Assembly (NCBI RefSeq): GCF_023347275.1
Contig: NZ_CP094468.1
Location: 496,001 to 560,000 of the forward strand
DNA length: 64,000 nucleotides
Reading direction: 5' to 3'
Source of the DNA: Faecalibacterium sp. I3-3-89
GTDB taxonomy: Bacteria > Bacillota > Clostridia > Oscillospirales > Ruminococcaceae
The notes under the pieces are model-generated. The model had not been told where the DNA came from. It did not search any database and worked only from the letters and a program-made list of their open reading frames with translations. Positions 2,637-15,859 of the stretch are shown in pieces (positions within the stretch are counted from its first letter, which is position 1; the number at the start of each line of letters is the position of its first letter). Position numbers and translations under genes: made by a program.

Positions 2637-3659
2637 TCAGCTGCGGTTCAGTCTCCGCTGCGCCAGTCCGAAGCCGACGGCGCTGGCGGCGAAGGTGGCG
2701 TAATAGCTGGCCAGCCGGTAGAACATCAGCAGGCTCATGGACGCAGCATTGGGGAGGAAGCTGCCGTACACCAGCAGAAAGGCCGTCTCCACCGACCCCA
2801 TGCCCGCCACGTTGGGCAGAGCGTTGGAGACGAAGAGGGTCAGTGCGGCGAGGAGCTGCACCTGCCAGAAGCGCAGCCCGGCGTCCAGCCCCATGAAGCG
2901 CAGCCCCATCCACGGCAGGCAGAAGAGCAGAAAGAGTTTGAGCAGATGGACGCCCAGAATGGCGGCGCAGCGGGCTTTGTCCGCCAGCAGATGGCGGCTC
3001 TCGGTGCTCAGGGTGTCCAGCTGCCGGAGCCAGTCGGCCCGGCGCTCGGCCCAGCGGCCTGTGTCGGGCAGGAAATGCAGCAGCCACCGGGCCAGACGCT
3101 GCACCACCGGCAGGGCGCAGAGGGCGATCAGCCCCACGATGACCCCTGCCACCACGGCGTAGGCTGCGGGCAGATACCGCAGCACGCCGTCCGAGTGGGC
3201 CGCCAGCCAAGGGCGGCCTGCCAGAAGCAGCAGGGTGGTGTAAAGCAGAACGGCCGTTTTGTGAAAGACATATTGCAGGGTCATGAGGCCTACGCCCGGG
3301 CCGATGTCCAGACCCCGGCGGTGGAGATACCACGTCTGGAAGGGGACAGACCCCGCGCCGAGGCCCACCACATTGCCGAAGGTGCCCATCCATGCGTTGT
3401 CGATGCCGTGGCGCAGAGAGAACCGGGGCAGGCGGCTGCGGACGATGAGCCAGCTGACGACGCCCTCCAGCAGCGGATAGCTCAGGCCCACGGCCAGCGC
3501 CAGAAATCCCTGCCAGAAGGTGAGCTGGCCCAGTGCAGCGGAGATCTCGGCCCAGTGCTCCCGGAAAATGAACACCACGATGCCGGTCAGCAGGGCCAGA
3601 ACGCCCAGCGAGAGCAGGGTCTTCCGGCGGGAAGGGGCAGGGGAGGCGGACGAACTCAT
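2637..3659 (-). CDS. Polytopic membrane protein, lysylphosphatidylglycerol synthase/AglD-type flippase family
   Basis: A 340-residue integral membrane protein with many hydrophobic helices, an early FREHWAEI-like loop and the late N-A-L-P-N-V-A-G-M-G-S-V-E segment typical of the LPG_synthase_TM (YbhN/AglD/MprF N-terminal) family. Members flip or modify lipid-linked substrates in the cytoplasmic membrane; the C-terminal aminoacyl-transferase domain of MprF is absent. The chosen ATG follows AAAGGAG by 7 bases; upstream in-frame starts would read through a hairpin. It is the last gene of a minus-strand group with a glycosyltransferase, suggesting a role in a lipid-linked glycan. The exact substrate is unknown. 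Confidence 0.75.
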   Translation of the reverse strand: MSSSASPAPSRRKTLLSLGVLALLTGIVVFIFREHWAEISAALGQLTFWQGFLALAVGLSYPLLEGVVSWLIVRSRLPRFSLRHGIDNAWMGTFGNVVGLGAGSVPFQTWYLHRRGLDIGPGVGLMTLQYVFHKTAVLLYTTLLLLAGRPWLAAHSDGVLRYLPAAYAVVAGVIVGLIALCALPVVQRLARWLLHFLPDTGRWAERRADWLRQLDTLSTESRHLLADKARCAAILGVHLLKLFLLFCLPWMGLRFMGLDAGLRFWQVQLLAALTLFVSNALPNVAGMGSVETAFLLVYGSFLPNAASMSLLMFYRLASYYATFAASAVGFGLAQRRLNRS

Positions 3660-3683
3660 GGGGGAAACTCCTTTCAACAAAAA

Positions 3684-3723
3684 CGGACTGGGATAAACTC
3701 TGGGAAGAGTATACCACAGTCCG
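3684..3723 (-). terminator. Hairpin plus T-run before the flippase gene, overlapping a -10-like element
   Basis: On the minus strand CGGACTG pairs with CAGTCCG and is followed by TTTTTG, then by the ribosome site of the flippase gene. The loop also carries TGGTATACT, an extended -10 candidate. The element may end the glycosyltransferase transcript, attenuate read-through, and/or supply a new start. Confidence 0.5.
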
Positions 3724-3759
3724 GAGGTGCATTTGTAAAGAGATGCCAAATTTTTTGCC

Positions 3760-5382
3760 TCAATTTTGGCAGAGTGATAAAGTGGATTCGCCGGTAAGCT
3801 CCCGGACCGCCTGCTTCAGGCCGTCGGCAAAGGCCTGCTTCGAGTAGTGGCGTTCATACAGGTCGCGGCAGGCCTGCCGCATGGTGGCCAGTTTTTCCGG
3901 GTGGTCGATGGCCCATGCCAGACGCTCCGCCAGCTTTTCGGGGTCGTCATCCTCGTAGACGAAGCCGTCCACCCCCTCGGTGATGAGTCCGGCGGTGCCG
4001 GTGTGCTCCGATACGATGGCGGGCTTGCCGAAGATGAGGCCCTCGGTGACGAAGGTGGGCATGGGGTCGTCGCGGGAGGCGCAGACGAGGCAGGTGCACT
4101 GGGCCATCAGGCTCTTGATCTCATCCCGGGTCAACCGCTTGACGTAGAAGACGTTGTCGGGGCAGTCCGCCGTCAGGCTGCGCACGGCGTCCATCATCTC
4201 CGGCTCGGCAGCCTTGCCCACAAAGAGGAAGGAGGCTTTTTTCATCGTCTCCGGCGGCAGCAGCCGGATGGCCTTGCAGAAGATGTCCTGCCCCTTTCGG
4301 TTCTCGAAGGAGCCGACGGTGGCGAAAAGGGGACGCCCGCCCGCATAGCTCAGGTCATAGTGGGCGAATTTCTCGGAGGCATAGTCCGGCAGGCCGTAGA
4401 TGAGAGGCCGGATGTTGAACTCCGGCCGCACCGAGTGCATGGCGTTGGCGGCGTGGCTGCCGACGGAATAGACCCGGATGTTCTCCCCCAGCTCTTTGGG
4501 GATCTGGTGGGCGATATGGGGGTAGCCCGCGAAGGCGTCGTGGAGCCACCAGAGTACCGGCACCCGTGCCCCGCTCAAGGCACGGACAGCCCGGGCCTCG
4601 ACGACAGTGTTGGCGAGGACGAAGTCGGCGCAGAGGGCCAGCCCCCACAGCAGGGGAGACTGGACGCAGCCGCGCCGGGTGATGACGACAGCCCCGGCTT
4701 CGAGGAAGAGCGGCATCGAGCCGCTGTCCTCCGGGCCGAGGACGACCACCTCGTAGCCCATGCTGCGCAGCACCGGCACAGCGCTGACCAGCACGATGGG
4801 GGCACCGGTCATGTCCAGCAGGTGGCTCATGATGAACACCCGCTTCCCCTTCATCGACCAGACATCCTCGGCACAGATGTCCCGCTCGTAGTGGGCCAGC
4901 GCCAGCGGGAGACAGACGTGGTTCCGGCTGAGCTTTGCCGCCAGCGTCAGCAGCTCGGCGGGGTTCCCGGGGTCACGGGCCTCGGCCAGACAGCGCAGCA
5001 GCAGCTCCCGGGAGACGAGGGCGCAGCCGGGGCAGGCCGCAAAGCTGGGGCTGTGGTAGAGGGCAGTGGCACCTGCATAGCCGAAGACGGCGTCAGTGGT
5101 GACGTAGTCTGCGCCGCTGCGCAGCGCATCCGCAAAGCAGGACAGGGCCGTGGGCATCAGGCTCAGGTCTTCTTTCGCCAGCAGCACGCCGCGGGCGCTG
5201 CCCAGACTCCCGCTGGAAAGGTCCTCTGCCAGCAGGAACTTGCGGTGGAGCTGGTCGCGCAGGGAGGCTTCCAGCGAGGCCCTCCGCCCCGGTGCGTAGA
5301 CGGCGAGAAAGACGTCCTGTGTATCAAGATATTCCTGCTTGGCGAGCTGTGCCCGCTGCAGGGTGGTATAACGGCTGTACAT
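3760..5382 (-). CDS. GT4-type glycosyltransferase with N-terminal extension
   Basis: A 540-residue cytoplasmic protein. The C-terminal half is a GT-B group-1 domain: a VGSFENRKGQD segment at the start of the second Rossmann fold, then LMAQCTCLVCASRDDPMP and TEGLIFGKPAIVSEHTGTAGLI with the acidic nucleotide-sugar-binding motif. The first Rossmann fold begins near KRVFIMSHLLDMTGAPIVL. About 180 N-terminal residues precede it and may be a remnant of another domain. The ATG at 5382 follows AGGAGG at 6 bases. It lies 13 bases after the coiled-coil gene and probably forms one operon with it. Predicted role: transfer of a sugar in surface polysaccharide synthesis; donor and acceptor are unknown. Confidence 0.82.
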   Translation of the reverse strand: MYSRYTTLQRAQLAKQEYLDTQDVFLAVYAPGRRASLEASLRDQLHRKFLLAEDLSSGSLGSARGVLLAKEDLSLMPTALSCFADALRSGADYVTTDAVFGYAGATALYHSPSFAACPGCALVSRELLLRCLAEARDPGNPAELLTLAAKLSRNHVCLPLALAHYERDICAEDVWSMKGKRVFIMSHLLDMTGAPIVLVSAVPVLRSMGYEVVVLGPEDSGSMPLFLEAGAVVITRRGCVQSPLLWGLALCADFVLANTVVEARAVRALSGARVPVLWWLHDAFAGYPHIAHQIPKELGENIRVYSVGSHAANAMHSVRPEFNIRPLIYGLPDYASEKFAHYDLSYAGGRPLFATVGSFENRKGQDIFCKAIRLLPPETMKKASFLFVGKAAEPEMMDAVRSLTADCPDNVFYVKRLTRDEIKSLMAQCTCLVCASRDDPMPTFVTEGLIFGKPAIVSEHTGTAGLITEGVDGFVYEDDDPEKLAERLAWAIDHPEKLATMRQACRDLYERHYSKQAFADGLKQAVRELTGESTLSLCQN

Positions 5383-5395
5383 CCCGGTCCTCCTC

Positions 5396-6217
5396 TCAGC
5401 TGCCACGATGGAACAGGCTCACCAGACGGCGGAGGGGCAGTGTGAGCTTCCAGCTGCTGGACGAAAGGACATTTTCCAGCGAGTTTTCGTAGGCCCGGCT
5501 CCGGGCGGTCAGCTCGGCGTTGGCCTGATGCAGCTCGGAGATGTTCTTCTGCAAGGCGTCGATGGTCTGCTTCTGGTCGGAAGAGGTCTTTTCCAGCTGG
5601 TCCAGATGTTTCTGCTCACAGACGCGGGTCTTCTGGAAATACTGCACGCCCTCCAGCACTGCGGCGAAGAGCGGGTCGCCTGCCAGCGCCTCCAGCGGGA
5701 AATAGCCGTAGCTCACGCCCAGCTTCATCCCGGCGGGGAAGCGGTTCATCCCTTCCAGCATGAGGTTGGGGTCGTCGTTCAGGAAAAGGATGCCGTCGCC
5801 GTGGAGCGGTACGCCGTTCACCGGGCGGCAGAGGATGCGGTCATCCGAAAAGACGAAATTGGTGATGCAGCAGGGCAGCTCGCCCGGGTCGAAGCGGAGA
5901 TTGACGGCGGCCTCGGGCAGCTCGAAGGTGGCCGTCACCATCCCGTTCATCTCGTCGTATTCGTAGTCCGGGGCTTTGACGGTGTCCCTCTGGGAAAAGC
6001 CGAAGCCGGCATCGAAGTAGAGCAGCGGCTGCACCAGCGCAGGTGAGTCGGCCTGCATCTCTTTCTGGGGGTGGGTGGCGTAGAAGGTCTGCAGCTGCTT
6101 TTCCAGCTCAAGGCAGCGCTGGGCCAGCCGCGAGGTACCCTCATCCGCAAGCCTGAGCTGCTGTTCCAGATCCGCAATGCGGCTGCGCAGAGCCGCTTCA
6201 GGAGTATCGTTCATCAT
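5396..6217 (-). CDS. Coiled-coil protein with SSSWKLTLPLRR tail, surface-glycan associated
   Basis: A 273-residue protein with N-terminal heptad-like coiled coil (about 8-45), a globular middle, a second coiled coil (about 205-250) and the C-terminal motif SSSWKLTLPLRRL. That motif, with the preceding coiled coil, is often seen just before or between glycosyltransferase domains in large rhamnan/O-antigen synthases, so this looks like a separate regulatory or scaffolding half of such an enzyme. It has no catalytic motif I can see. GAGGAGG lies 8 bases before the ATG. Directly followed by the glycosyltransferase gene. Confidence 0.6.
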   Translation of the reverse strand: MMNDTPEAALRSRIADLEQQLRLADEGTSRLAQRCLELEKQLQTFYATHPQKEMQADSPALVQPLLYFDAGFGFSQRDTVKAPDYEYDEMNGMVTATFELPEAAVNLRFDPGELPCCITNFVFSDDRILCRPVNGVPLHGDGILFLNDDPNLMLEGMNRFPAGMKLGVSYGYFPLEALAGDPLFAAVLEGVQYFQKTRVCEQKHLDQLEKTSSDQKQTIDALQKNISELHQANAELTARSRAYENSLENVLSSSSWKLTLPLRRLVSLFHRGS

Positions 6218-6329: not shown

Positions 6330-7463
6330 TTAGTGTTTTGCCGCATAATGACGGCTCTTGTCCCGTCGCCGGGGCTTGTCCGCAGTCTTGCCGCCCCGGA
6401 GCTTCCGGCCCAGCTCTTTCCGCCGCATCAGAAGCTCGGTGATGGCGAAGATGGACGCCAGCGAGAGCACGAACTGCAAAAGCATCCCCTGTACCGGACG
6501 GTCAGCGTATTTCGCCGCCATCAGATACCATGGGATGGCCGTCAGCTCCACGGTGTGGATGCAGAAGATGAAGAGCGAGCGCCGCCCCACCCACTCGATG
6601 GCGTGGGAGATGGGGCCGTCCACCCGGCGCTGCAATTTCAGGAAGAGCCGGATGATGCCGTAGCCCACTGCGCCGTCCAGAAAGATGCTCACAGGCCCCA
6701 TCGTCCACTCGCCCAGCGAGACGCAGTCGGTGCTCTGGGTCAGCAGGACGCCTGCCACGACGCCCAGCGCCGCCGCGATCAGCCCGGCTCTGGCCCGGCC
6801 GGAAAGGGGCGTCTCAAACAGGCGGCGCTTCTTGGCCAGATAGCCGATATAGAGGTAGGGCAGCGATACCATGCCCTGCGCGATGCAGAAGGGGGCCTCC
6901 CACACCAGCGTGATGCCCCAGCCCAGCAGGGTGACGCCGATGACGGCCGGGGTTATGTACCGCTCGGGGAAGATGTCGAGAAGGACATCGAGAAGGATCC
7001 ACGCCAGCATCAGGGCCACCAGATACCACATCGGCCCGCAGGAGAAGAACTCCTGCCCGAAGTAAGAGGCCGTGTGGGGCAGCCCCAGCAGGAAGCCGCC
7101 CAGCACCTTGCCCGACTGGGTGATGGCGTTGGGCCACGAGCCGAAGGCTGCGTGGTGGATGAGGCAGTGGAGCACGGTGGTGGCCGCTGCCGTATAAAGG
7201 TAAGGCTTGAGCAGGGTCTTGATCTGCTGCTCGATGCATTTGTGGATGGAGCGCTTGCGGAAGCCGTAGCCGCTGGCGATGAAGAAGGCGGCCATCAGCG
7301 CTTCGCGGTAGGCGAAGAGTGCAAAGGCGAAGGGGGTGACGTCGTCGGTGCCGAGGGGGTAAAGCTCTGCCGTGTGGGCAAAGACGATGGCCAGCATTCC
7401 GATGCCTTTCAGCAGGTCGAACATGCCAAGGCTGCTTACGGTGCGGGGCTTGGTGCCTTCCAT
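6330..7463 (-). CDS. Acyltransferase 3 family membrane protein (OafA-like)
   Basis: A 377-residue polytopic protein starting with a short soluble tail, then FDLLKGIGMLAIVFAHT, where the helix-1 His belongs to the acyltransferase-3 signature, and about ten membrane helices. The family moves acyl groups (often acetyl) onto extracytoplasmic sugars of exopolysaccharide, peptidoglycan or lipids. AAGGAGG precedes the ATG at 7463; an in-frame upstream extension was discarded because it lacks a ribosome site and is rich in Arg/Thr. First gene after the strong minus-strand promoter and upstream of the coiled-coil and glycosyltransferase genes, so likely a decoration enzyme for the same glycan. Confidence 0.85.
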   Translation of the reverse strand: MEGTKPRTVSSLGMFDLLKGIGMLAIVFAHTAELYPLGTDDVTPFAFALFAYREALMAAFFIASGYGFRKRSIHKCIEQQIKTLLKPYLYTAAATTVLHCLIHHAAFGSWPNAITQSGKVLGGFLLGLPHTASYFGQEFFSCGPMWYLVALMLAWILLDVLLDIFPERYITPAVIGVTLLGWGITLVWEAPFCIAQGMVSLPYLYIGYLAKKRRLFETPLSGRARAGLIAAALGVVAGVLLTQSTDCVSLGEWTMGPVSIFLDGAVGYGIIRLFLKLQRRVDGPISHAIEWVGRRSLFIFCIHTVELTAIPWYLMAAKYADRPVQGMLLQFVLSLASIFAITELLMRRKELGRKLRGGKTADKPRRRDKSRHYAAKH

Positions 7464-7582
7464 ATAAGGGGTCCTCCTTGTAGTGCGCCGCCTGTCCCGG
7501 AGGCCCTGAAAGGCCGTGTTTTGGGCGCGATAGATAAAAATATGAAGCTCGGCGGGGAGCTTTTTTGCCAAATGATATAAAC

Positions 7583-7611
7583 AGTATAATGCTTTTTGGG
7601 GCTTCTGTCAA
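7583..7611 (-). promoter_or_regulatory. Promoter of the acyltransferase/glycosyltransferase operon
   Basis: On the minus strand TTGACA (7611-7606), a 17-bp spacer and TATACT (7588-7583), leaving a leader of about 115 bases before the first gene. Confidence 0.75.
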
Positions 7612-7736: not shown

Positions 7737-7752
7737 TTGCATATTTGTGCAA
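7737..7752. promoter_or_regulatory. Palindrome TTGCA-N6-TGCAA, possible operator of the acyl-ligase cluster
   Basis: TTGCATATTTGTGCAA lies 8 bp upstream of the -35 box of the first AMP-ligase promoter. The right part, ATTTGTGCAA, also occurs in the palindrome at 30551-30564. Confidence 0.4.
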
Positions 7753-7759
7753 TGAAATC

Positions 7760-7788
7760 TTGCGTTTGCGGCGCATATGCGGTATACT
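7760..7788 (+). promoter_or_regulatory. Promoter of the first AMP-ligase gene
   Basis: TTGCGT (7760-7765), 17-bp spacer, TATACT (7783-7788); leader of about 105 bases to the ATG at 7900. Confidence 0.65.
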
Positions 7789-7899
7789 GTTGCCGAGAGG
7801 AATCGAACCAGAACTTTCCTCTGTTTGCCAGAAATGCGGAGAGTCTGGAACAAAATGGTGCTGTTTATTTTTCTTGCGAATAAAAAAGGAGTAAGACCA

Positions 7900-9381
7900 A
7901 TGGCTGAAGAGATCAAAGTCCCCGCAGGCATATATGATATGGTGACCCGCTGCATGGAGCAGGAATTCCCCGACAATGTGGCTATCCGCTATGTGGCCGC
8001 CGACGGCAAGACCGTCGTGGAAAAGAAGTACCGCGAGTACGCGCAGGACATCCGCCGGATGACTGCCTACCTCAAGGCAGAAGTGCCCGGCATCAAGGGC
8101 CAGCGTGTTGCGCTGCTGAGCCGGAACAGCTACGAGTACTGTGTGGCATCCTTCGGCATCATCCTTGCAGGGGGCGTCCTCGTGACCCTCAACCAGAAAA
8201 AGATGTGGGAGGAGCTGGAATATGAGCTGGGTCTTGTGGAACCGGCCCTCATCCTGAACGACGGCATCGACTACGGCTGCCGTGCCGAGCTGGAAGCCGC
8301 CTACGGCCCGAAGCTCCGCCCGATGGACTGCTATCGGAACACCGCCCCCGGTGAGTTGACCAACTGCATCGGCCACGACGACCTGATGATGCTGATGTTC
8401 ACCTCCGGCACCACCGGCCGCAGCAAGGGCGTCATGCTCTCGGAGCGGAATATGTGCACCAGCCTCTGCACCTACGGTGCCCGGGCTGAGAACTGGATCA
8501 CGTCCCGTCTGCCGGAGGGTCAGAAGCTGCCGCTGAGCCACATGACCCTGCTGCCCCTCTTCCACATGGCCTGCTTTGTCTGCGTCATGTCCTACCCGCC
8601 CGCCGGCTGGGCACTGAACCTCTGCAGCGACATCCGCGACTTCTACCGCGACCTCGGCCTGATGCACAGTGACATCATGGCCTCGGCCCCCATGCTGGTG
8701 GAGACGGTTTACAACGACTTCAAGCGGGGCCGCGTCAGCCGCCTCAACGGCCTGTGGGACCTGTGCTGCTCCTCTGCGGCCCTCGACCCCAAGATGCTGC
8801 TGGAGCTGGCCCAGAACGGCTTCGTCATCAACCAGTGCTACGGCATGACCGAGACCTTCGGCGACGGCATCCTGAACTTCACCCAGACGGCCGACCACAT
8901 GAGCGCCGTGGGCAAGCCCGACGACCACGTTCAGTATAAGCTGGACGAGACCGGCGAGATCTGCATCAAGGGCGACTGCGTGATGCTGGGCTACTACAAG
9001 GATCCCGAGGCCACGGCAGAGGTCATCGACGCCGACGGCTGGTTCCACACCGGCGACCTTGCCCGGATGGATGAGGAAGGCTTCTATTACATCACCGGCC
9101 GCAAGAAGAACCTCATCATCCTCGCCAGCGGCGAGAACGTCAGCCCCGAAGAGCTGGAAAAGAAGCTGGCCCTCTGCCCGGCCATCATCGAGTGCATCGT
9201 GAAGGAGAAGGGCCAGAAAATTTGTGCTGTCGTCTACTGCCCTGAGGATAAGCAGGAAGAGGTCCGGGCCTTCGTCACCGAGGTGAACCGCAGCTTGCCG
9301 CTGTATAAGCGCATCAGCGCGGTGGAATTCACCGCCGAACCGCTGCCCCGCAACGCTCTGGGCAAGCTGCTGCGCAAGTAA
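7900..9381 (+). CDS. AMP-forming acyl ligase/adenylation enzyme, copy 1
   Basis: A 493-residue member of the acyl-CoA synthetase/NRPS adenylation (ANL) superfamily. It activates a carboxylate as acyl-AMP and passes it to CoA or a carrier protein. Visible motifs: TSGTTGRSKG (P-loop, about residue 170), YGMTE (A5), GWFHTGDLA (A7), GRKKNLIILASGENVSPEE hinge (A8), and the C-terminal catalytic Lys in NALGKLLRK. The ATG follows AAAGGAG by 8 bases. It is strikingly similar along its length to the next gene, so the pair arose by tandem duplication. Given the ACP and condensation-type gene downstream, loading of the ACP is likelier than CoA, but this is inference; the substrate is unknown. Confidence 0.88.
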   Translation: MAEEIKVPAGIYDMVTRCMEQEFPDNVAIRYVAADGKTVVEKKYREYAQDIRRMTAYLKAEVPGIKGQRVALLSRNSYEYCVASFGIILAGGVLVTLNQKKMWEELEYELGLVEPALILNDGIDYGCRAELEAAYGPKLRPMDCYRNTAPGELTNCIGHDDLMMLMFTSGTTGRSKGVMLSERNMCTSLCTYGARAENWITSRLPEGQKLPLSHMTLLPLFHMACFVCVMSYPPAGWALNLCSDIRDFYRDLGLMHSDIMASAPMLVETVYNDFKRGRVSRLNGLWDLCCSSAALDPKMLLELAQNGFVINQCYGMTETFGDGILNFTQTADHMSAVGKPDDHVQYKLDETGEICIKGDCVMLGYYKDPEATAEVIDADGWFHTGDLARMDEEGFYYITGRKKNLIILASGENVSPEELEKKLALCPAIIECIVKEKGQKICAVVYCPEDKQEEVRAFVTEVNRSLPLYKRISAVEFTAEPLPRNALGKLLRK

Positions 9382-9415
9382 ACAATAAAACAGCGAAAAA
9401 GGACACGCCGCGTAG

Positions 9416-9444
9416 TTGCATTTCTCTGCCGAAACAGGTATTAT
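9416..9444 (+). promoter_or_regulatory. Separate promoter for the second AMP-ligase, ACP and transferase
   Basis: TTGCAT (9416-9421), 17-bp spacer, TATTAT (9439-9444), 71 bases before the second ligase start. Confidence 0.6.
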
Positions 9445-9515
9445 TACGTTGAGGCAGAAAATGTCAGCTGCCGGCGTTTCGCTGCAATAAAGAAAAACAG
9501 CAAGGAGCGACAAAA

Positions 9516-10988
9516 ATGATAAATACTGTATATGAGCTTATCACGGACGTCATGGCGAAGCAGTACCCCGACCGGGTGGCTTTCCGCTATGTGGCCGCCG
9601 ATGGCAAGACTGTGGTGGAAAAGACCTACGCCCAGTATGTGCAGGACATCCGCAGGGCCGTTACTTATTTTAAGGAGAATATCCCCGACATCAAGGGCAA
9701 GCGTGTCGGCATCATGAGCCGCAACTGCTATGAGTACGGTGTCAACAGCTTCGGCGCGATCCTCGCCGGGGCCGTCGTCGTGACCATCAACCAGAAAAAG
9801 ACCTGGCCCGAGCTGGAATATGAGCTGGGCCTTGTCGAGCCTTCCCTCATCGTCAACGACGGCATCGACTATGGCTGCCGCCCCGACATCGAGGCCGCCT
9901 ACGGCGATAAACTCCGCCCGATGGACGCCTTCAAGGACAGCGCGCCTGCAGAGCTTGTTGACTGCGTGGGCCATGATGATTTGATGGTGCTGATGTTCAC
10001 TTCCGGCACCACCGGCCGCAGCAAGGCCGTCATGCTCTCGGAGCGCAACTTTTTTACCACTGTGGAGTGCCAGGTCAAATTCGGCGACGCCATGCTGGAC
10101 TATAAGCACGAGCATATGCCCGAGGACAAAAACGACGTCCTGAGCAACTTCGCCATCCTGCCCCTGTTCCATCTGGGTACGTTCATCTGCCTCTTCGTTT
10201 GGGCCTGCAAGGGCTGGGCGCTGAACCTCTCCGCCGACATCCGCGACTTCTATCGCGATCTCGGCCTGATGCACAGCGATGCCATCGCTGTGGCTCCCAT
10301 GCTGATGGAGGCCATCTACAAAGACGTCAAGCGGGGCCGCCGCGCCCGCCTGAACGGCATCTGGAACCCCTGCGGCTCCTCTGCCATGTTTGACGGCGCC
10401 ATGCTGGCCGAGCTGGCACAGCAGGGCATGATGATCACTCAGGTGTACGGCATGACCGAGACCTGCGGCGACGGCATCATCAACTACGAGCAGGACGAAA
10501 AGCACATCCGCGCCGTGGGCAAGCCCGACGACCACGCCGAGTACAAGCTGGACGAGACGGGCGAAATTTGCATCCGCGGCGGCTGCGTCATGCTGGGTTA
10601 TTACAAGGACCCCGAGGCCACCGCAGAAGTCCTCGACGCCGACGGCTGGTTCCACACCGGAGACCTGGCCCGTGTGGATGAGGACGGCTTCTATTACATC
10701 ACCGGACGCAAGAAGAATATCATCATCCTCGACAACGGTGAGAACGTCAGCCCCGAAGAACTGGAAAATCTGCTGTCCAAGTGCGAGGCCGTCAAGGAAT
10801 GCATCGTCAGGGAGAAGGGCAAGAAGATCTGTGCCGTCATCTACTGCGGCGAGGCCGACCAGCAGACCGTCCGCGACTTCATCACCGAGACCAACCGCAC
10901 CCTGCCGCTCTACAAGCGGATGAGCGCCGTGGAGTTCAGCACTGAGCCTCTGCCCCGCACCGGCACCGGCAAGCTGCTGCGCAAGTAA
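9516..10988 (+). CDS. AMP-forming acyl ligase/adenylation enzyme, copy 2
   Basis: A 490-residue paralogue of the preceding gene with the same ANL motifs: TSGTTGRSKA (the last Gly of the loop is Ala here), YGMTETCGDG, GWFHTGDLARVDEDGF, GRKKNIIILDNGENVSPEE and the C-terminal catalytic Lys in TGTGKLLRK. The N-terminal 100 residues are almost the same as in copy 1, while the middle, which shapes the substrate pocket, differs more. This suggests that the copies activate different acids or serve different steps. AAGGAGCG precedes the ATG. It has its own promoter and is followed 80 bases later by the ACP gene. Confidence 0.88.
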   Translation: MINTVYELITDVMAKQYPDRVAFRYVAADGKTVVEKTYAQYVQDIRRAVTYFKENIPDIKGKRVGIMSRNCYEYGVNSFGAILAGAVVVTINQKKTWPELEYELGLVEPSLIVNDGIDYGCRPDIEAAYGDKLRPMDAFKDSAPAELVDCVGHDDLMVLMFTSGTTGRSKAVMLSERNFFTTVECQVKFGDAMLDYKHEHMPEDKNDVLSNFAILPLFHLGTFICLFVWACKGWALNLSADIRDFYRDLGLMHSDAIAVAPMLMEAIYKDVKRGRRARLNGIWNPCGSSAMFDGAMLAELAQQGMMITQVYGMTETCGDGIINYEQDEKHIRAVGKPDDHAEYKLDETGEICIRGGCVMLGYYKDPEATAEVLDADGWFHTGDLARVDEDGFYYITGRKKNIIILDNGENVSPEELENLLSKCEAVKECIVREKGKKICAVIYCGEADQQTVRDFITETNRTLPLYKRMSAVEFSTEPLPRTGTGKLLRK

Positions 10989-11068
10989 GAATAAACCGGG
11001 CAGGCTGCGGAATACTGGAAAAGAGCCGCAGCCGCCTTTAATGGAACTACGAAAGGAAGATTCAAACT

Positions 11069-11314
11069 ATGGAAAGAACCGAGATCGTGTCCCAGATCCT
11101 TGCAATTCTGGAAGATGTTGCAGAAATTTCCCCCGATGATGTGAACGAGAACAGCGTCCTCATGGACGACCTCGACCTGTCGTCCATGGAGATCCTGACC
11201 GTCGTGGCTGACCTTGAGGAGACCTTCGGCCTGCGTATCCCCGAAAAGGAGCTGCGCAACTTCGTCACCGTCAGCGATCTGGCCGACTATCTGGCTGCGC
11301 ACGCGGGGGAATAA
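11069..11314 (+). CDS. Discrete acyl carrier protein
   Basis: An 81-residue acidic four-helix carrier protein. The 4'-phosphopantetheine attachment site is in DDLDLSSMEIL (Ser39), where the usual Asp-Ser-Leu is Ser-Ser-Met; the following helix LVADLEETFGLRIP-like pattern is typical. It carries acyl groups as thioesters. This is not the fatty-acid-synthase acpP context: there are no fab genes nearby, and it sits between an AMP-ligase and a condensation-type transferase, with only 3 bases before the latter. An AAGGAAG ribosome site precedes the ATG. Confidence 0.9.
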   Translation: MERTEIVSQILAILEDVAEISPDDVNENSVLMDDLDLSSMEILTVVADLEETFGLRIPEKELRNFVTVSDLADYLAAHAGE

Positions 11315-11317
11315 GGG

Positions 11318-12523
11318 ATGGATGCCGAACAGCGCTCCGTTTTTCAGGGCATCGTCTACTACTACCGTGAAAACATGGTCAACTGCCGCTATCAGGTGAC
11401 GCTGAGGGATGCTGTGGACGGTGCGCTCTTGCAGCAGGCTCTGGATGCGGCCCGGGCAAAGGCACCCTACTATTTCCAGAAGCCGGTGTGGGAGAAAAAG
11501 CTGCTCCACCTCGAACCGTCGGACGCCCCCTGCCCGGTGCGGCAGGGCAGTGCAAAGCCCGAATTTCCGGACGAGAACGGCTTTACTGTTGCCCTGAGCT
11601 ATGAGGGAAAAGTCGTCTACTTTGACTGGTTCCACTTCATGGCCGATGGCCGGGGCATAGCACCCTTTATGACCATGGTGCTGCAGTTCTACTGCAACCT
11701 GCGGTACGGCACGACCTTTGAGGGCCGTGCCCTCGTGACCGACCCGCCCTACGACATCGAGGACATTTTGGCCAAGTACCCCGAGAGTCAGGTGGCCAAC
11801 GATATGCAGCGCCCCGTGGTGCAGACCTTTGAGGAGACGCCCACCTGCTGCCGCGTCCGGCTGGAAAAGGCGGGGCTTGTGGACGCGGCCCTCCGCTGCG
11901 GCGTCAAGCCCTTCAGCACCCTTACGGCTCTGCTCTGTAAGGCGGTGCGGGCGTATCTGGACAAGGACGAGGTGCTCTACAGCTACTCAACGGACGCCCG
12001 GGACGCGCTGCGCGTGCCGAACGCCCTCTACAACTGCGTGGCCTCCTTCCAGCGCAAGCTGCCGCTGACGGCAGATGCCCCGCTGGCCGAGGTGGCCGTG
12101 GGCGTAGACGCGGACCTGAAGGCGAACCTCGCCCCGGAGAAGAAAATTTTCCGCATCGCCGAGCAGATGGGCTGGGTCTACCGGGTCTACCAGCAGAAGG
12201 CCAGCCTCAGCATCAAGAAGCGCATCTTCCAGATGGGCGAATACATCAGCGGCTTTCCGGCCGACTTCTGGGTGAGCTATCTGGGCGACCCCTTCAGGCC
12301 GTCCAGCCCGGAGCTGACCCGGTACATCGAGGATTTCCAGACGTGGGTGCCCGCGGACGGCGCATCCATCGGTTTGGAAGCCACCAGCCTGCACGGGGTC
12401 ATCACCCTCTGCATCAAGAACAAGGTGCCCCGCCCCGGCTTTGCCGAGGCTCTGCGCGCCGCTTTCGAGGCCGAAGGCATCCGGGTGCTGGAGGCCGTGG
12501 AGCTGGGGGAAGACCTTACATAA
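11318..12523 (+). CDS. Condensation-domain-like acyltransferase (CAT/PapA superfamily)
   Basis: A 401-residue soluble protein with HFMADG at 106-111, the HxxxDG active-site motif shared by NRPS condensation domains, PapA/wax-ester-type transferases and chloramphenicol acetyltransferases, and a later PADFWVSYLGDP stretch in the position of the structural DFGWG-like motif. Such enzymes move an acyl group from a carrier-protein or CoA thioester to an amine or alcohol. It starts 3 bases after the ACP stop, so translational coupling and use of acyl-ACP as donor are likely. The acceptor is unknown. Overall similarity to named families appears low, so the assignment rests mainly on this motif and the context. 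Confidence 0.72.
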   Translation: MDAEQRSVFQGIVYYYRENMVNCRYQVTLRDAVDGALLQQALDAARAKAPYYFQKPVWEKKLLHLEPSDAPCPVRQGSAKPEFPDENGFTVALSYEGKVVYFDWFHFMADGRGIAPFMTMVLQFYCNLRYGTTFEGRALVTDPPYDIEDILAKYPESQVANDMQRPVVQTFEETPTCCRVRLEKAGLVDAALRCGVKPFSTLTALLCKAVRAYLDKDEVLYSYSTDARDALRVPNALYNCVASFQRKLPLTADAPLAEVAVGVDADLKANLAPEKKIFRIAEQMGWVYRVYQQKASLSIKKRIFQMGEYISGFPADFWVSYLGDPFRPSSPELTRYIEDFQTWVPADGASIGLEATSLHGVITLCIKNKVPRPGFAEALRAAFEAEGIRVLEAVELGEDLT

Positions 12524-12528
12524 GAAAC

Positions 12529-12570
12529 AACCTCTCCGTCACGCCGTAGGCGTGACGAAGAGGTTTTCTT
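12529..12570 (+). terminator. Terminator of the ACP/transferase unit, derived from the AACCTCTCCGTC repeat
   Basis: AACCTCT and GTCACGCC pair with GGCGTGAC and AGAGGTT, followed by TTTCTTT. The left arm has the same first 13 bases (AACCTCTCCGTCA) as the palindromic element at 19046-19122. Confidence 0.8.
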
Positions 12571-12732: not shown

Positions 12733-14079
12733 ATGGAAAAAAATAAAAACAGCGGCTCGCTCCTAGCGAAAAGGATGGCAGTATCTCTGGTCTGCGGCCT
12801 TGCGGCAGGCTTTGCCTTTATGATGCTGCGTGAGAAGCTCGTTGCTTCCGGCAACAGCGGTATCTGGCAGACCATCAACGACCTGCTCTTTCAGGACATC
12901 ACCACCGAGGGCGCAGAACGTGCACTGGGCCTGTTCTACATCATTGGCCAGCTCTTCATCAAGGCACTGCAGCTGGTCATCATCCCGATGGTGTTCACCT
13001 CCATTGCGCTGGCCATCGGCAGCATCGCCGACACCCGCACCATGGGCCGCATCTCGGCCAAGACCCTCTTCTGGTTCCTGCTGTGCTCCTTTATGGCGCT
13101 GGCACTGGCCGGCTGCGTGGGCTATGCCACCTATTCCATGGGCCTGTTCAACACCCACATCGAGGGCCTGACCGAGGCCGCCGGCTCCACCGGCTCCAAC
13201 CCCCTGAACGTGGTGCTGAACGTCATCCCCTCCAACATCGTCACGGCGTTCGGCAGCAACAACGCGGTGCTCTCCTCCGTCTTCCTCGCCGTGGCCGTGG
13301 GTCTGAGCATGAATGTGCTGGGTGAGAGCCGCACGGCCACCCTCCGCCGCCTGCTGGGCGAGGTGAACGATGTGGTGGTGGTCTTCCTCAACTTCGTGGT
13401 CACGACCTTCGCCCCCTTCGCTGTCTTCGTGCTGCTGACCCGCACCTTCGCCATCTACGGCATCGACTACCTCAAGCCTGCGCTGGTGTACGTGGTAGTC
13501 ACGGTGGCTCTGCTCTTGGTCTTCCTGTTGGTGGCCTACCCTTTGGTGGTGGCGCTGGGCGCGAAGCAGAACCCCATCACCTTCATCAAAAAGATCGCCA
13601 ATGTGGCCGTTTTTGGCTTCTCCACCTCCTCCAGCGCGGCGACCCTGCCCCTGAACATCAAGGTCTGCACCGAGGACTTCGGCGTCGATGAGTCCATCGC
13701 CTCCTTCGTCCTGCCGCTGGGCATGACCATCAACATGGACGGCACTGCCATCATGCAGGTGGTCGCCACCGTCTTTATCGCGGGCTGCGCCGGATACACC
13801 GTCACGCCCGCCCAGCTGGTCGTGGTGGCCCTGCTGGCTCTGCTGGCCTCGGTGGGCACCCCTGCCGCTCCCGGCGCAGGTGCCGTCATCCTCTTCACCA
13901 TCCTGTCCGGCGCGGGCTTCGTCAACGACAGCGCCCTGCTGGCCTACTCCCTCATCCTTGCCATCAACCGCCCCATTGAGATGCTCGTCACCTCCCTGAA
14001 CGTGGTGGGCGACGCAGTCGCCAGTATCTGTGTGGCCAAGAGCGAGGGCCTGCTGAACGAGGAAAAGTTCAACGCATAA
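12733..14079 (+). CDS. Dicarboxylate/amino acid:cation symporter (DAACS family)
   Basis: A 448-residue membrane protein of the glutamate/dicarboxylate transporter fold, moving an anionic amino acid or dicarboxylate with Na+ or H+. Key signatures are the serine-rich re-entrant loop FSTSSSAATLPLN (about 295-307) and NMDGTAIMQ (about 335), then a second loop with SVGTPAAPGAG. The length is normal. GAGGA lies before the ATG. Single-gene unit between its own promoter and terminator. GltP/SstT-like substrates (Glu, Asp, Ser/Thr, fumarate) cannot be separated from sequence alone. Confidence 0.9.
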   Translation: MEKNKNSGSLLAKRMAVSLVCGLAAGFAFMMLREKLVASGNSGIWQTINDLLFQDITTEGAERALGLFYIIGQLFIKALQLVIIPMVFTSIALAIGSIADTRTMGRISAKTLFWFLLCSFMALALAGCVGYATYSMGLFNTHIEGLTEAAGSTGSNPLNVVLNVIPSNIVTAFGSNNAVLSSVFLAVAVGLSMNVLGESRTATLRRLLGEVNDVVVVFLNFVVTTFAPFAVFVLLTRTFAIYGIDYLKPALVYVVVTVALLLVFLLVAYPLVVALGAKQNPITFIKKIANVAVFGFSTSSSAATLPLNIKVCTEDFGVDESIASFVLPLGMTINMDGTAIMQVVATVFIAGCAGYTVTPAQLVVVALLALLASVGTPAAPGAGAVILFTILSGAGFVNDSALLAYSLILAINRPIEMLVTSLNVVGDAVASICVAKSEGLLNEEKFNA

Positions 14080-14095
14080 TTGACCTGTGATATAC

Positions 14096-14132
14096 AAAAG
14101 CGCCTCTCCGGTAAAGCGGAGGGGCGCTTTTT
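14096..14132 (+). terminator. Terminator after the symporter gene
   Basis: AAAAGCGCCTCTCCG pairs with CGGAGGGGCGCTTTT across a 6-base loop and runs into T residues. Confidence 0.85.
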
Positions 14133-14308
14133 GCTCCGGACAGTCCTCTTTTTTACACAAAGTCCTCAACCGCCGCCGGGGTTTTACACCGATTTTGCGC
14201 CGGCATGGTTTCGGGCCGGGGGCGTGGGCGGTAAAATAAGGCCGTTCCCAAGGATCAAAAAAGAGAGAGCGAGCCTGTGAGGCTCATGGAAAGAGAGGAC
14301 TTTCAGGT

Positions 14309-15859
14309 ATGAAAGAGAATAAAATGTCCCGCCGCAGCTTTTTGAAGGCTGGTGCTTTTGCGTCTGCCGCCGGTATGCTGGCCGCTGCTCCCGCAGCCGC
14401 CCATGCCGCCGCACCCAACGTGGACAAGGCAGCAGAGGAGGAAAACGGCCTGCTGGGCATCTTCGGCGGCAAGCCCAAATATGTTTTCCTCTTCATCGGC
14501 GACGGCATGGGCACGGCCCAGATCCAGTCTGCCCGCTTCTACAAGGGCACGGTGGAGAACAACGGCGCCGTCACCGAGGGCGAGCTGAGCTTCACCCAGT
14601 TCCCCGAGGTGGGCAGCGTGACCACCTATGACAGCACCTCCTTCTGCCCCGACTCCGCTTCCACTGCTACCTCCATCGCCACCGGCCACAAGACCGAGAG
14701 CGGCGTCATCAATATGTGTCCCTGGACCCGCGATGTGCCCTATGAGACCATCGCCGAGAAGCTCCATGCCCAGAAGAACTACAAGGTGGGTGTCGTCTCC
14801 TCCGTCAACATCGACCACGCCACCCCTGCTGCCTTCTACGCACACCAGAAGACCCGCAAGAACTACTACGCCATCGGCAAAGAGCTGGCCGCCTCCGGCT
14901 TCGAATACTTCGCAGGCGGTGAGTTCCAGAAGGTGAACGGCGACGGCACCGGCCCCAACAACCACGAGATCGCTGCCCAGAACGGCTACAACGTCGTCAC
15001 CCGTCAGGCAGACGCCGCCGCCCTCAAGGCCGGTGCAGGCAAGACCCTCATCATCGCGGAGGCACTGGCCGACGGCAAGGCCATGAACTACTCCATGGAT
15101 GCCGCCGCAGGCGAGTGGCAGCTGACCGACTACGTCAAGAAGGGCATCGAGCTGCTGGACAACAAGAAGGGCTTCTTCCTGATGACTGAGTCCGGCAAGA
15201 TCGACTGGGCCTGCCACGCCAACGATGCTGCCGCCTCCATCCATGACGTTCTCGAGATGAGCAACGCCGTGCAGACTGCGGTGGACTTCTACAACGCCCA
15301 CCCCAACGATACCCTTATCCTCGTCACCGCCGACCACGAGACCGGCGGCATGGCCATCGGCTACAAGACCACCAACTACGACACCTTCCTGACCAACCTC
15401 ACCCACCAGAAGATGTCCTACGCCAAGTTCGACTCCACCTACGTCAAGGGCTACATCGCCAACAAGACCCCCTTTGAGGCTGCGATGGCCGACGTGAAGG
15501 CCAACTTCGGCCTGACCCTGCCCACCGACCCCGATGCCGCCAAGGCAGGCAAGCTGCTGCTGACCGACTACGAGGTGGAGAACCTGCGCAAGGCCTACGA
15601 GCGGACGCTGGCCGTCGGCGCTGCCTCCCAGAAGGAGATGAGCCAGCAGGATTATGAGCTGTACGGCACCTACATCCCCTTCAGCATGGCCGTCTGCCAC
15701 ACCATCAACCACAAGTCCGGCATGGACCACACCACCTATGCCCACACCGGCGCTCCCGTCAACATCTATGCGCTGGGCGTCGGCGCGGAGAAGTTCCGCG
15801 GCGTCTTTGACAACACCGAGATCTACCACAAGCTGGCTGAGCTGACCGGCGTGCAGTAA
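14309..15859 (+). CDS. Exported alkaline phosphatase with RR signal
   Basis: A 516-residue exported phosphomonoesterase. The N-terminus has MSRRSFLKAG followed by a hydrophobic Ala-rich stretch ending AAHAA, a twin-arginine-like signal with a probable cleavage near residue 35. Alkaline phosphatase landmarks are FLFIGDGMG (first metal-binding Asp), DSASTATSIATGHKT with the nucleophilic Ser, and TADHETGG with metal-binding Asp-His, plus a late THTG-like metal ligand region (YAHTGAPV). It releases phosphate from organic phosphates outside the membrane. GAGAGGA precedes the ATG. No pho regulator is nearby. The upstream gap is 14133-14308; a -10-like TAAAAT near 14230 lacks a good -35. Confidence 0.9.
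   Translation: MKENKMSRRSFLKAGAFASAAGMLAAAPAAAHAAAPNVDKAAEEENGLLGIFGGKPKYVFLFIGDGMGTAQIQSARFYKGTVENNGAVTEGELSFTQFPEVGSVTTYDSTSFCPDSASTATSIATGHKTESGVINMCPWTRDVPYETIAEKLHAQKNYKVGVVSSVNIDHATPAAFYAHQKTRKNYYAIGKELAASGFEYFAGGEFQKVNGDGTGPNNHEIAAQNGYNVVTRQADAAALKAGAGKTLIIAEALADGKAMNYSMDAAAGEWQLTDYVKKGIELLDNKKGFFLMTESGKIDWACHANDAAASIHDVLEMSNAVQTAVDFYNAHPNDTLILVTADHETGGMAIGYKTTNYDTFLTNLTHQKMSYAKFDSTYVKGYIANKTPFEAAMADVKANFGLTLPTDPDAAKAGKLLLTDYEVENLRKAYERTLAVGAASQKEMSQQDYELYGTYIPFSMAVCHTINHKSGMDHTTYAHTGAPVNIYALGVGAEKFRGVFDNTEIYHKLAELTGVQ

Follow-up and report, generated by a model that had tools for sequence, protein, structure and literature searches.

In a stretch of 64,000 nucleotides from the genome of Faecalibacterium sp. 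I3-3-89 (2.8 Mb in one contig; positions 496,001 to 560,000 of NZ_CP094468.1, hereafter the window), we analysed a gene set for two acyl ligases, a dedicated acyl carrier protein (ACP) and a condensation-type acyltransferase (Ctr), together with a divergent operon that begins with a membrane acyltransferase-3 gene (AT3). Judged by its gene content, linkage and phylogeny, the locus is probably an envelope acylation system fed by a carrier protein. A more specific proposal, which we put forward tentatively, is that AT3 takes its acyl group directly from the dedicated ACP, in a new branch of envelope acylation in gut Clostridia that follows Dlt-like logic, is built on AT3 instead of an MBOAT enzyme and has swappable ligases with distinct pockets; in Faecalibacterium Ctr would have been gained, and one ACP pool would serve a membrane and a cytosolic transferase. 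The genes concerned are as follows.

7897..9381, + strand: LigA, ACP-distal ANL (AMP-forming) acyl ligase, 494 aa (PF00501, 151.9 bits)
9516..10988, + strand: LigB, ACP-proximal ANL acyl ligase, 490 aa (PF00501, 147.4 bits)
11069..11314, + strand: ACP, 81 aa (PF00550, 42.9 bits), with Ser39 as the phosphopantetheine site
11318..12523, + strand: Ctr, acyltransferase of predicted condensation/PapA fold, 401 aa, with HxxxDG at residues 106-111
6330..7466, - strand: AT3, first gene of the divergent operon (PF01757, 82.5 bits)
5396..6217, - strand: coiled-coil protein of the AT3 operon, function unassigned, no Pfam family over cut-off
3760..5406, - strand: GT4-type glycosyltransferase of the AT3 operon (PF00534, 87.5 bits; PF16994, 115.8 bits)
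2637..3749, - strand: LPG_synthase_TM membrane protein (PF03706, 64.9 bits), last gene of the AT3 operon

The initial annotation, made from the sequence alone, had delimited the locus at 7737 to 12,570, which takes in the ligases, ACP and Ctr and leaves the likely partner AT3 just outside. Its description of the proteins was borne out, since both ligases are full-length with TSGTTGRSK and a C-terminal GKLLRK holding the catalytic Lys, Ser39 of ACP lies in DLDLSS, and the HxxxDG protein starts 3 bases past the ACP stop; the carrier-protein logic that it ascribed to the gene set is likewise supported. The small acylated metabolite that it proposed as the product, on the other hand, omits the linked membrane AT3, which points to the cell surface. 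LigA, LigB, ACP and Ctr look like one operon. In the AT3 operon the genes are spaced, in order, by 112 bases, an 11-base overlap and 10 bases, and the PF03706 gene, which adjoins the GT4 gene in many but not all loci, is an uncertain member of the system. We did not read the gene set as the remnant of a broken nonribosomal peptide synthetase (NRPS), because the genome has no PF00668 match and its PF00501 and PF00550 genes number three each. It has one PF01648 (AcpS-type) gene.

AT3 exceeded the curated PF01757 cut-off of 31 bits by a wide margin and matched no other Pfam family; its start was set at a conserved MEGTKPRT, the open frame extending to 7571. The R/K-X10-H motif is present in the first helix region as K54-X10-H65, and K or R with the His was kept in all 16 AT3s of linked sets that were aligned (5 from the genus and 11 from the second family described below). 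The loss of CoA-binding residues was considered as a mark of ACP use by AT3 and rejected, as linked and unlinked AT3s were alike at these residues in the alignment.

Within the genus the two operons go together. Among 31 Faecalibacterium genomes, ACP, the coiled-coil protein and AT3 had strong matches in an identical set of 27, and the remaining four (G009, G017, G018 and G027) lacked all three alike. Ctr had a strong match in 26 genomes, the sole match in G017 being a weak one to a different protein; in G015, AT3, one ligase, ACP, the coiled-coil protein and GT4 were kept and Ctr was undetectable. At all 26 Ctr loci (25 fetched and the window) ACP lay directly 5′ of Ctr and AT3 faced away at the opposite operon end, an arrangement that is more than chance and that agrees with the earlier expectation of genes conserved together in related genomes. 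Of the 25 fetched Ctr loci, all but L045, which stops at a contig edge, also have GT4 (24 loci). Over the 27 loci, two full ligases were present in 15 and one in 10 (G015 included), while L045 had fragments and L047 none, both belonging to assemblies that are ∼80% complete.

The same linkage recurs in a second family (f48), which is probably Lachnospiraceae because, among the matches listed, those to f48 AT3s that carry names come mostly from Butyrivibrio, Pseudobutyrivibrio and Lachnospiraceae, with one weak Fibrobacter match. When 348 f48 genomes were searched with the AT3 alignment, 19 matches turned up in 17 of them; 17 of these matches, in 16 loci, formed the test set (G720:C426 and G775 were left out). 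Stretches of up to ∼8 kb per side were scanned with open reading frames taken from stop to stop, which revealed the ACP of L220. A ligase and/or an ACP was found at 11 of the 16 loci, nine with both (L191, L218, L219, L220, L222, L223, L225, L226 and L230), one with just a ligase, at a contig end (L227), and one with just an ACP (L221), against none of 40 control PF01757 loci from f48 (Fisher P = 3e-8; 1e-7 when the seed locus L191 is excluded). L232, which was listed by the alignment search and had no AT3-profile match in the locus scan, was counted as unlinked. The controls were hand-picked at about every third of the matches listed for 40 f48 genomes and represent 25 genomes, four matches of the own subfamily being excluded and two edge matches swapped for their neighbours; their stretches of 6 kb per side (12 of the 40 under 12.8 kb) were somewhat shorter than those of the test set.

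Overlapping genes were seen in some f48 loci (L191, L218, L219 and L222). At L191 of genome G608, AT3, ACP and ligase are overlapping or adjacent, and the ACP keeps the MDDLDLSS.EI signature at 45% identity. The Ctr profile found no match in any f48 AT3 locus. Surface-polysaccharide-like genes (export and glycosyltransferase) lie near the modules of L221, L222, L225, L226, L227 and L230, where the labels go by the sequence starts and GT4 profile matches, not by a search of protein families. Each AT3 frame at L220 and L230 (G780 and G841) contains one internal stop. As separate observations, L218 (G667; 7777-12262) has AT3 followed by two ligase-ACP pairs in tandem, in which each ligase may have its own carrier, and G608 holds in one genome a C-T-A cassette (L195; see below), the AT3-ACP-ligase module L191 and a lone ligase of the AT3-linked type (L192).

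The two ligases of the window are 66% identical overall, with 66% over residues 1-177, 52% over the pocket region (178-310), 75% over 311-494 and 77% over 340-494; the most divergent stretch is two 30-column blocks from residue 181, with 18 of 60 residues identical. The initial annotation had described differing pockets between near-identical termini: the pocket difference stands, and its classes persist across species, while the likeness of the termini was overstated. The pocket region sorts by ligase class across species and the C-terminal part tends to sort by species group, a contrast that is not firm since monophyly of the distal class in the C-terminal part was not rejected by the AU test (P = 0.168). 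That LigA and LigB keep distinct pockets and share one ACP is consistent with each charging the carrier with a different acid. TSGTTG and GKL motifs were found in the 39 Faecalibacterium ligases aligned, all of which have P(L/M)FH in the A4 region, a pattern that we take to mark acyl or aryl ligases and not amino-acid adenylating ones. We did not claim gene conversion between the window ligases, because their C-terminal identity of 77% is about the 75% seen between species and because of the AU result. Other tandem pairs are more contrasted, with pocket and C-terminal identities of 42% and 87% in L037 and of 36% and 86% in L052, suggesting patchy gene conversion that spares the pocket in these loci and their relatives.

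In a tree of 51 ANL proteins, including 11 of the 39 Faecalibacterium ligases, the Faecalibacterium ligases, LigA among them, joined seven ligases of AT3-bearing f48 genomes with a support of 0.965, six from AT3 loci and one the lone gene L192 of G608. All 11 A proteins (ligases) of the C-T-A cassettes fell in a separate clade (0.997) together with three other ligases. L177 and L185 were dropped for want of a usable frame, L196 and L179 are the same gene, and other ligases matching LigB were left out. Among 293 genomes of the class, the best LigB matches outside the genus were two ligases of G608 and then nine others, of which seven were read as C-T-A loci and two (G512 and G546) have a PF00668 frame adjacent by position.

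ACP was 75-94% identical to 13 aligned genus orthologues (of 26), DDLDLSS being invariant in all 14 sequences, with Ser39 in a DLxxxS context. Ctr had no Pfam match at 1e-3, and a weak PF00668 signal was obtained from 11 of 24 orthologues (best E 0.00092). Its structure was confidently predicted as a two-lobed CAT-like fold of the C-domain/PapA type, as the initial annotation had anticipated. In an alignment that covered the 26 Ctr genes except L040 and L043 (24 sequences), H106, D110 and G111 of the motif H-FMA-DG were invariant. The His is preceded by F, Y, H or D, the window reading FHFMADG. The two loci found among named records have Ctr orthologues that are 94% (F. longum) and 63% (F. prausnitzii) identical. 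The Ctr profile matched in 88 of 297 genomes of the family, strongly in four genus members only, the best match outside the genus being of partial length (E 2.8e-22). Stand-alone relatives from the own family and order (alignment A4, one member of which weakly matches PF07247 under the cut-off) matched the Ctr profile at full length (E 1.4e-39, 399 columns); unlike in Faecalibacterium, a ligase or ACP of these kinds was found in none of the 25 loci scanned for them, over the stretch read. In L059, L060, L061 and L062, distant Ctr relatives lie directly 5′ of a small MSYCV(H/N)CGVEL protein that is zinc-ribbon-like by its cysteines, and the L059 relative has a weak PF07247 (alcohol acetyltransferase) match under the cut-off. 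Some Ctr proteins from metagenomes have a mosaic look: P0043 matches P0072 over its first third and P0051 over the remainder, which may reflect allelic recombination or assembly chimeras.

The gene set is easily confused with the CTA cassettes for fatty-acid amides (FAA), from which it can now be set apart. In those cassettes (OaaA-OaaACP-OaaC of Coprococcus eutactus, and Lachnospiraceae), a discrete ligase (A), carrier protein (T) and C-domain-fold transferase (C) suffice for acyl amides, and a motif, protein sizes and a gene order are described for them in the accessible text of the reports (PMC13142362, PMC13060934). We recovered nine loci with a C protein and a ligase through PF00668 and added L194 and L195; all of these loci (L151-L157, L159, L160, L194 and L195) fit the described features. 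The T gene was seen in eight of the nine (masked or absent in L155), L151 has an extra small open reading frame between T and A, and L158 was left out as an HHxxxDG protein at a contig end that resembles a piece of an NRPS. Like the Faecalibacterium set, these cassettes have discrete ligase, carrier and transferase genes, and with LigA and LigB their ligases share 28-34% identity along most of the length. The gene order, in contrast, is C-T-A in the cassettes and A-A-T-C in Faecalibacterium, where AT3 is also linked. Ctr aligned with the nine C proteins only weakly and in its N-terminal part (hhalign E 4.9e-6, 123 columns), and its FHFMADG departs from the (D/H)HxxxDS/A-type active site. The final Gly alone would not exclude the cassette type, because Gly stands at the last motif position in 17% of FAA sequences according to the part of PMC13142362 available. 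The residue before YGMTE is Gly in all 11 CTA ligases. In the 39 Faecalibacterium ligases it is without exception Met, Cys, Thr, Asn or Val, and among the f48 ligases of the AT3 set (13, counting L192) it is other than Gly in 10. Going by known ligase structures, this suggests a pocket that is shorter or bent relative to the oleate type. Kinship with the fatty-acid-amide clusters of gut Clostridia, whose logic the initial annotation had likened to that of this locus, was rejected on the Ctr mismatch, the active-site motif, the ligase clade, the gene order and the lack of a PF00668 match over the cut-off.

A parallel is offered by D-alanylation by DltA, DltC, DltB and DltD, where an adenylating ligase, a small carrier and a polytopic membrane acyltransferase decorate an envelope polymer (accessible text of PMC9338922 and PMC9558356). 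The Faecalibacterium locus has the same three kinds of protein. It differs in that the membrane enzyme is AT3 (PF01757) and not an MBOAT (DltB), in that AT3-linked systems often have two ligases with different pockets, and in the added C-domain-fold enzyme; no DltD was noticed in the two operons, and it was not searched for elsewhere. With its PF01757 domain, its K-X10-H motif and a glycosyltransferase gene in its operon, AT3 resembles envelope acyltransferases of the OafB, OatA and WecH type. As proposed here, LigA and LigB would each adenylate a different carboxylic acid in the cytosol and load it onto ACP, made holo presumably by the single AcpS-type enzyme of the genome. AT3 would receive the acyl group from ACP, directly or after one further transfer, and pass it to a glycan or glycolipid of the surface, in whose synthesis the GT4 and coiled-coil gene products would take part. 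Ctr, on the best reading a Faecalibacterium addition to a ligase-ACP-AT3 system, would use acyl groups of the same ACP for an alcohol or amine acceptor in the cytosol, as a second outlet or as a shuttle feeding AT3. Its role is the weakest part of the proposal: Ctr is almost universally retained in the genus and must matter there, but it is undetectable in G015 and the f48 modules seem to manage without it.

The Dlt-like proposal is the most economical because AT3, ligase and ACP recur together in two families, and the promoter region between the divergent operons, conserved across nine aligned genomes, speaks for it as well, as do the single PF01648 gene and the retention of AT3, ligase and ACP in G015, where Ctr is undetectable. 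A number of observations weigh against it. AT3 lies on the opposite strand in Faecalibacterium, and its co-occurrence with the ligase operon could reflect the common descent of the neighbourhood. Five of the 16 f48 AT3 loci (L224, L228, L229, L231 and L232) have no ligase or ACP; in L230 ACP adjoins AT3 and the ligase is ∼6 kb off, and in L220 two ligases are ∼3.4 kb off. In the tree, further ligases from AT3 loci attach weakly (deeper nodes ≤0.816), and L223 falls outside the AT3-linked group. None of the 84 AT3 homologues listed is fused to an ACP. The RxxR motif reported for AT3 proteins at the cytoplasmic face of helix 3 is not evident as written in this AT3 (SGYGFRKRSIHKC), nor in the five unlinked AT3s of an alignment that had no characterised member. 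A dispensable accessory would hardly explain why Ctr is kept in 26 of 27 system-bearing genomes at 3 bases past ACP. Finally, characterised AT3 enzymes have an acyl-CoA donor, and a 2022 review, in its accessible part, argues against ACP (PMC9558356); a 2023 model of AT3 is likewise built on acyl-CoA in the text available (PMC9833829). The ligases could make acyl-CoA for AT3, leaving ACP to Ctr only.

This last point leads to a rival that we regard as rather improbable, in which the ligases are acyl-CoA synthetases feeding AT3 by the accepted mechanism and ACP serves Ctr or another enzyme. It has in its favour that the AT3 donors shown to date are acyl-CoAs, as far as the accessible text of the same two papers goes, and that the best NCBIfam matches of the ligases are CoA ligases, though far under the cut-offs. 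It does not sit well with the ACP that goes with AT3 in ten f48 loci that have no Ctr-profile match (in nine together with a ligase, in L221 on its own), nor with the two ligase-ACP pairs after one AT3 in L218. We also consider it unlikely that ligase, ACP and Ctr work like a CTA cassette towards a soluble acyl amide or ester of small size, with AT3 as an unrelated neighbour. The close spacing of Ctr and ACP, the invariant HxxxDG, the predicted C-domain fold and the retention of Ctr in the genus would all suit such a product; CTA cassettes show that discrete A, T and C proteins suffice (PMC13142362, in the part available), and CTA A proteins are among the best LigB matches. Yet Ctr is not like the C protein of FAA cassettes (CFAA) in motif or beyond its N-terminal part, the ligases group with those of AT3-bearing genomes, the Gly before YGMTE is replaced throughout the genus, and the AT3 linkage recurs elsewhere without Ctr. 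Least probable, to the point of being very doubtful, is that AT3 and the ligase-ACP-Ctr operon have separate functions and stay side by side through vertical descent in one genus. The opposite strands would fit this, as would a single gain behind the within-genus co-occurrence, but the same three families are linked in f48, adjoining on one strand in several loci, against none of the 40 controls.

Faecalibacterium is an abundant human gut commensal, and the chemistry of its surface is important for contact with the host. Across bacteria, surface glycans are modified by AT3 enzymes, for which the accessible text of published work gives acyl-CoA as the donor (PMC9558356, PMC9833829); the Faecalibacterium AT3 differs in being linked to a ligase and an ACP of its own. 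With acyl-CoA as the accepted donor, an AT3 fed by an ACP would be new; no description of a ligase-ACP set paired with AT3 was found among the papers listed in the literature searched, which left most subscription journals outside. If the Dlt-like proposal is true, ligase, ACP and AT3 would form a second way to feed AT3, and the choice of ligase would let unusual acids be placed on the surface. Ligase, ACP and AT3, with or without Ctr, offer a compact genetic handle for testing the system.

The region 3′ of the operon (12733-15859) encodes an SDF-type symporter and an alkaline phosphatase (PF00245), neither of which was found in the other loci scanned with the same proteins, where L033 stops at Ctr and several contigs are short. 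The SDF transporter gene (12733-14079) was left out of the operon because a terminator-like hairpin intervenes and no other locus scanned shows SDF after Ctr. The promoter, operator-like and terminator-like elements are as follows.

7583..7611, - strand: AT3-operon promoter TTGACA-17-TATACT, 11 of 12 consensus matches, conserved in 9/9 genomes aligned
7760..7788, + strand: probable ligase-operon promoter TTGCGT-17-TATACT, with TTGC and TATACT conserved in 9/9 genomes aligned
7737..7752, no strand: inverted repeat TTGCA-N6-TGCAA, operator-like, within the promoter region that the divergent operons share and immediately 5′ of the probable ligase-side promoter
12529..12565, no strand: terminator-like hairpin between Ctr and the SDF transporter gene, called by the scan on the - strand with 17 pairs

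Read by eye on the + strand, the hairpin is a stem with one C-A mismatch followed by a TTCTTTAT tail, and it would serve as the terminator of the Ctr operon. The ligase-side promoter was below detection of the promoter scan and is weaker than that of the AT3 side. The inverted repeat is present in the window and in four of the eight other aligned genomes, with a different sequence at that place in the remaining four, and is possibly the operator of some regulator.

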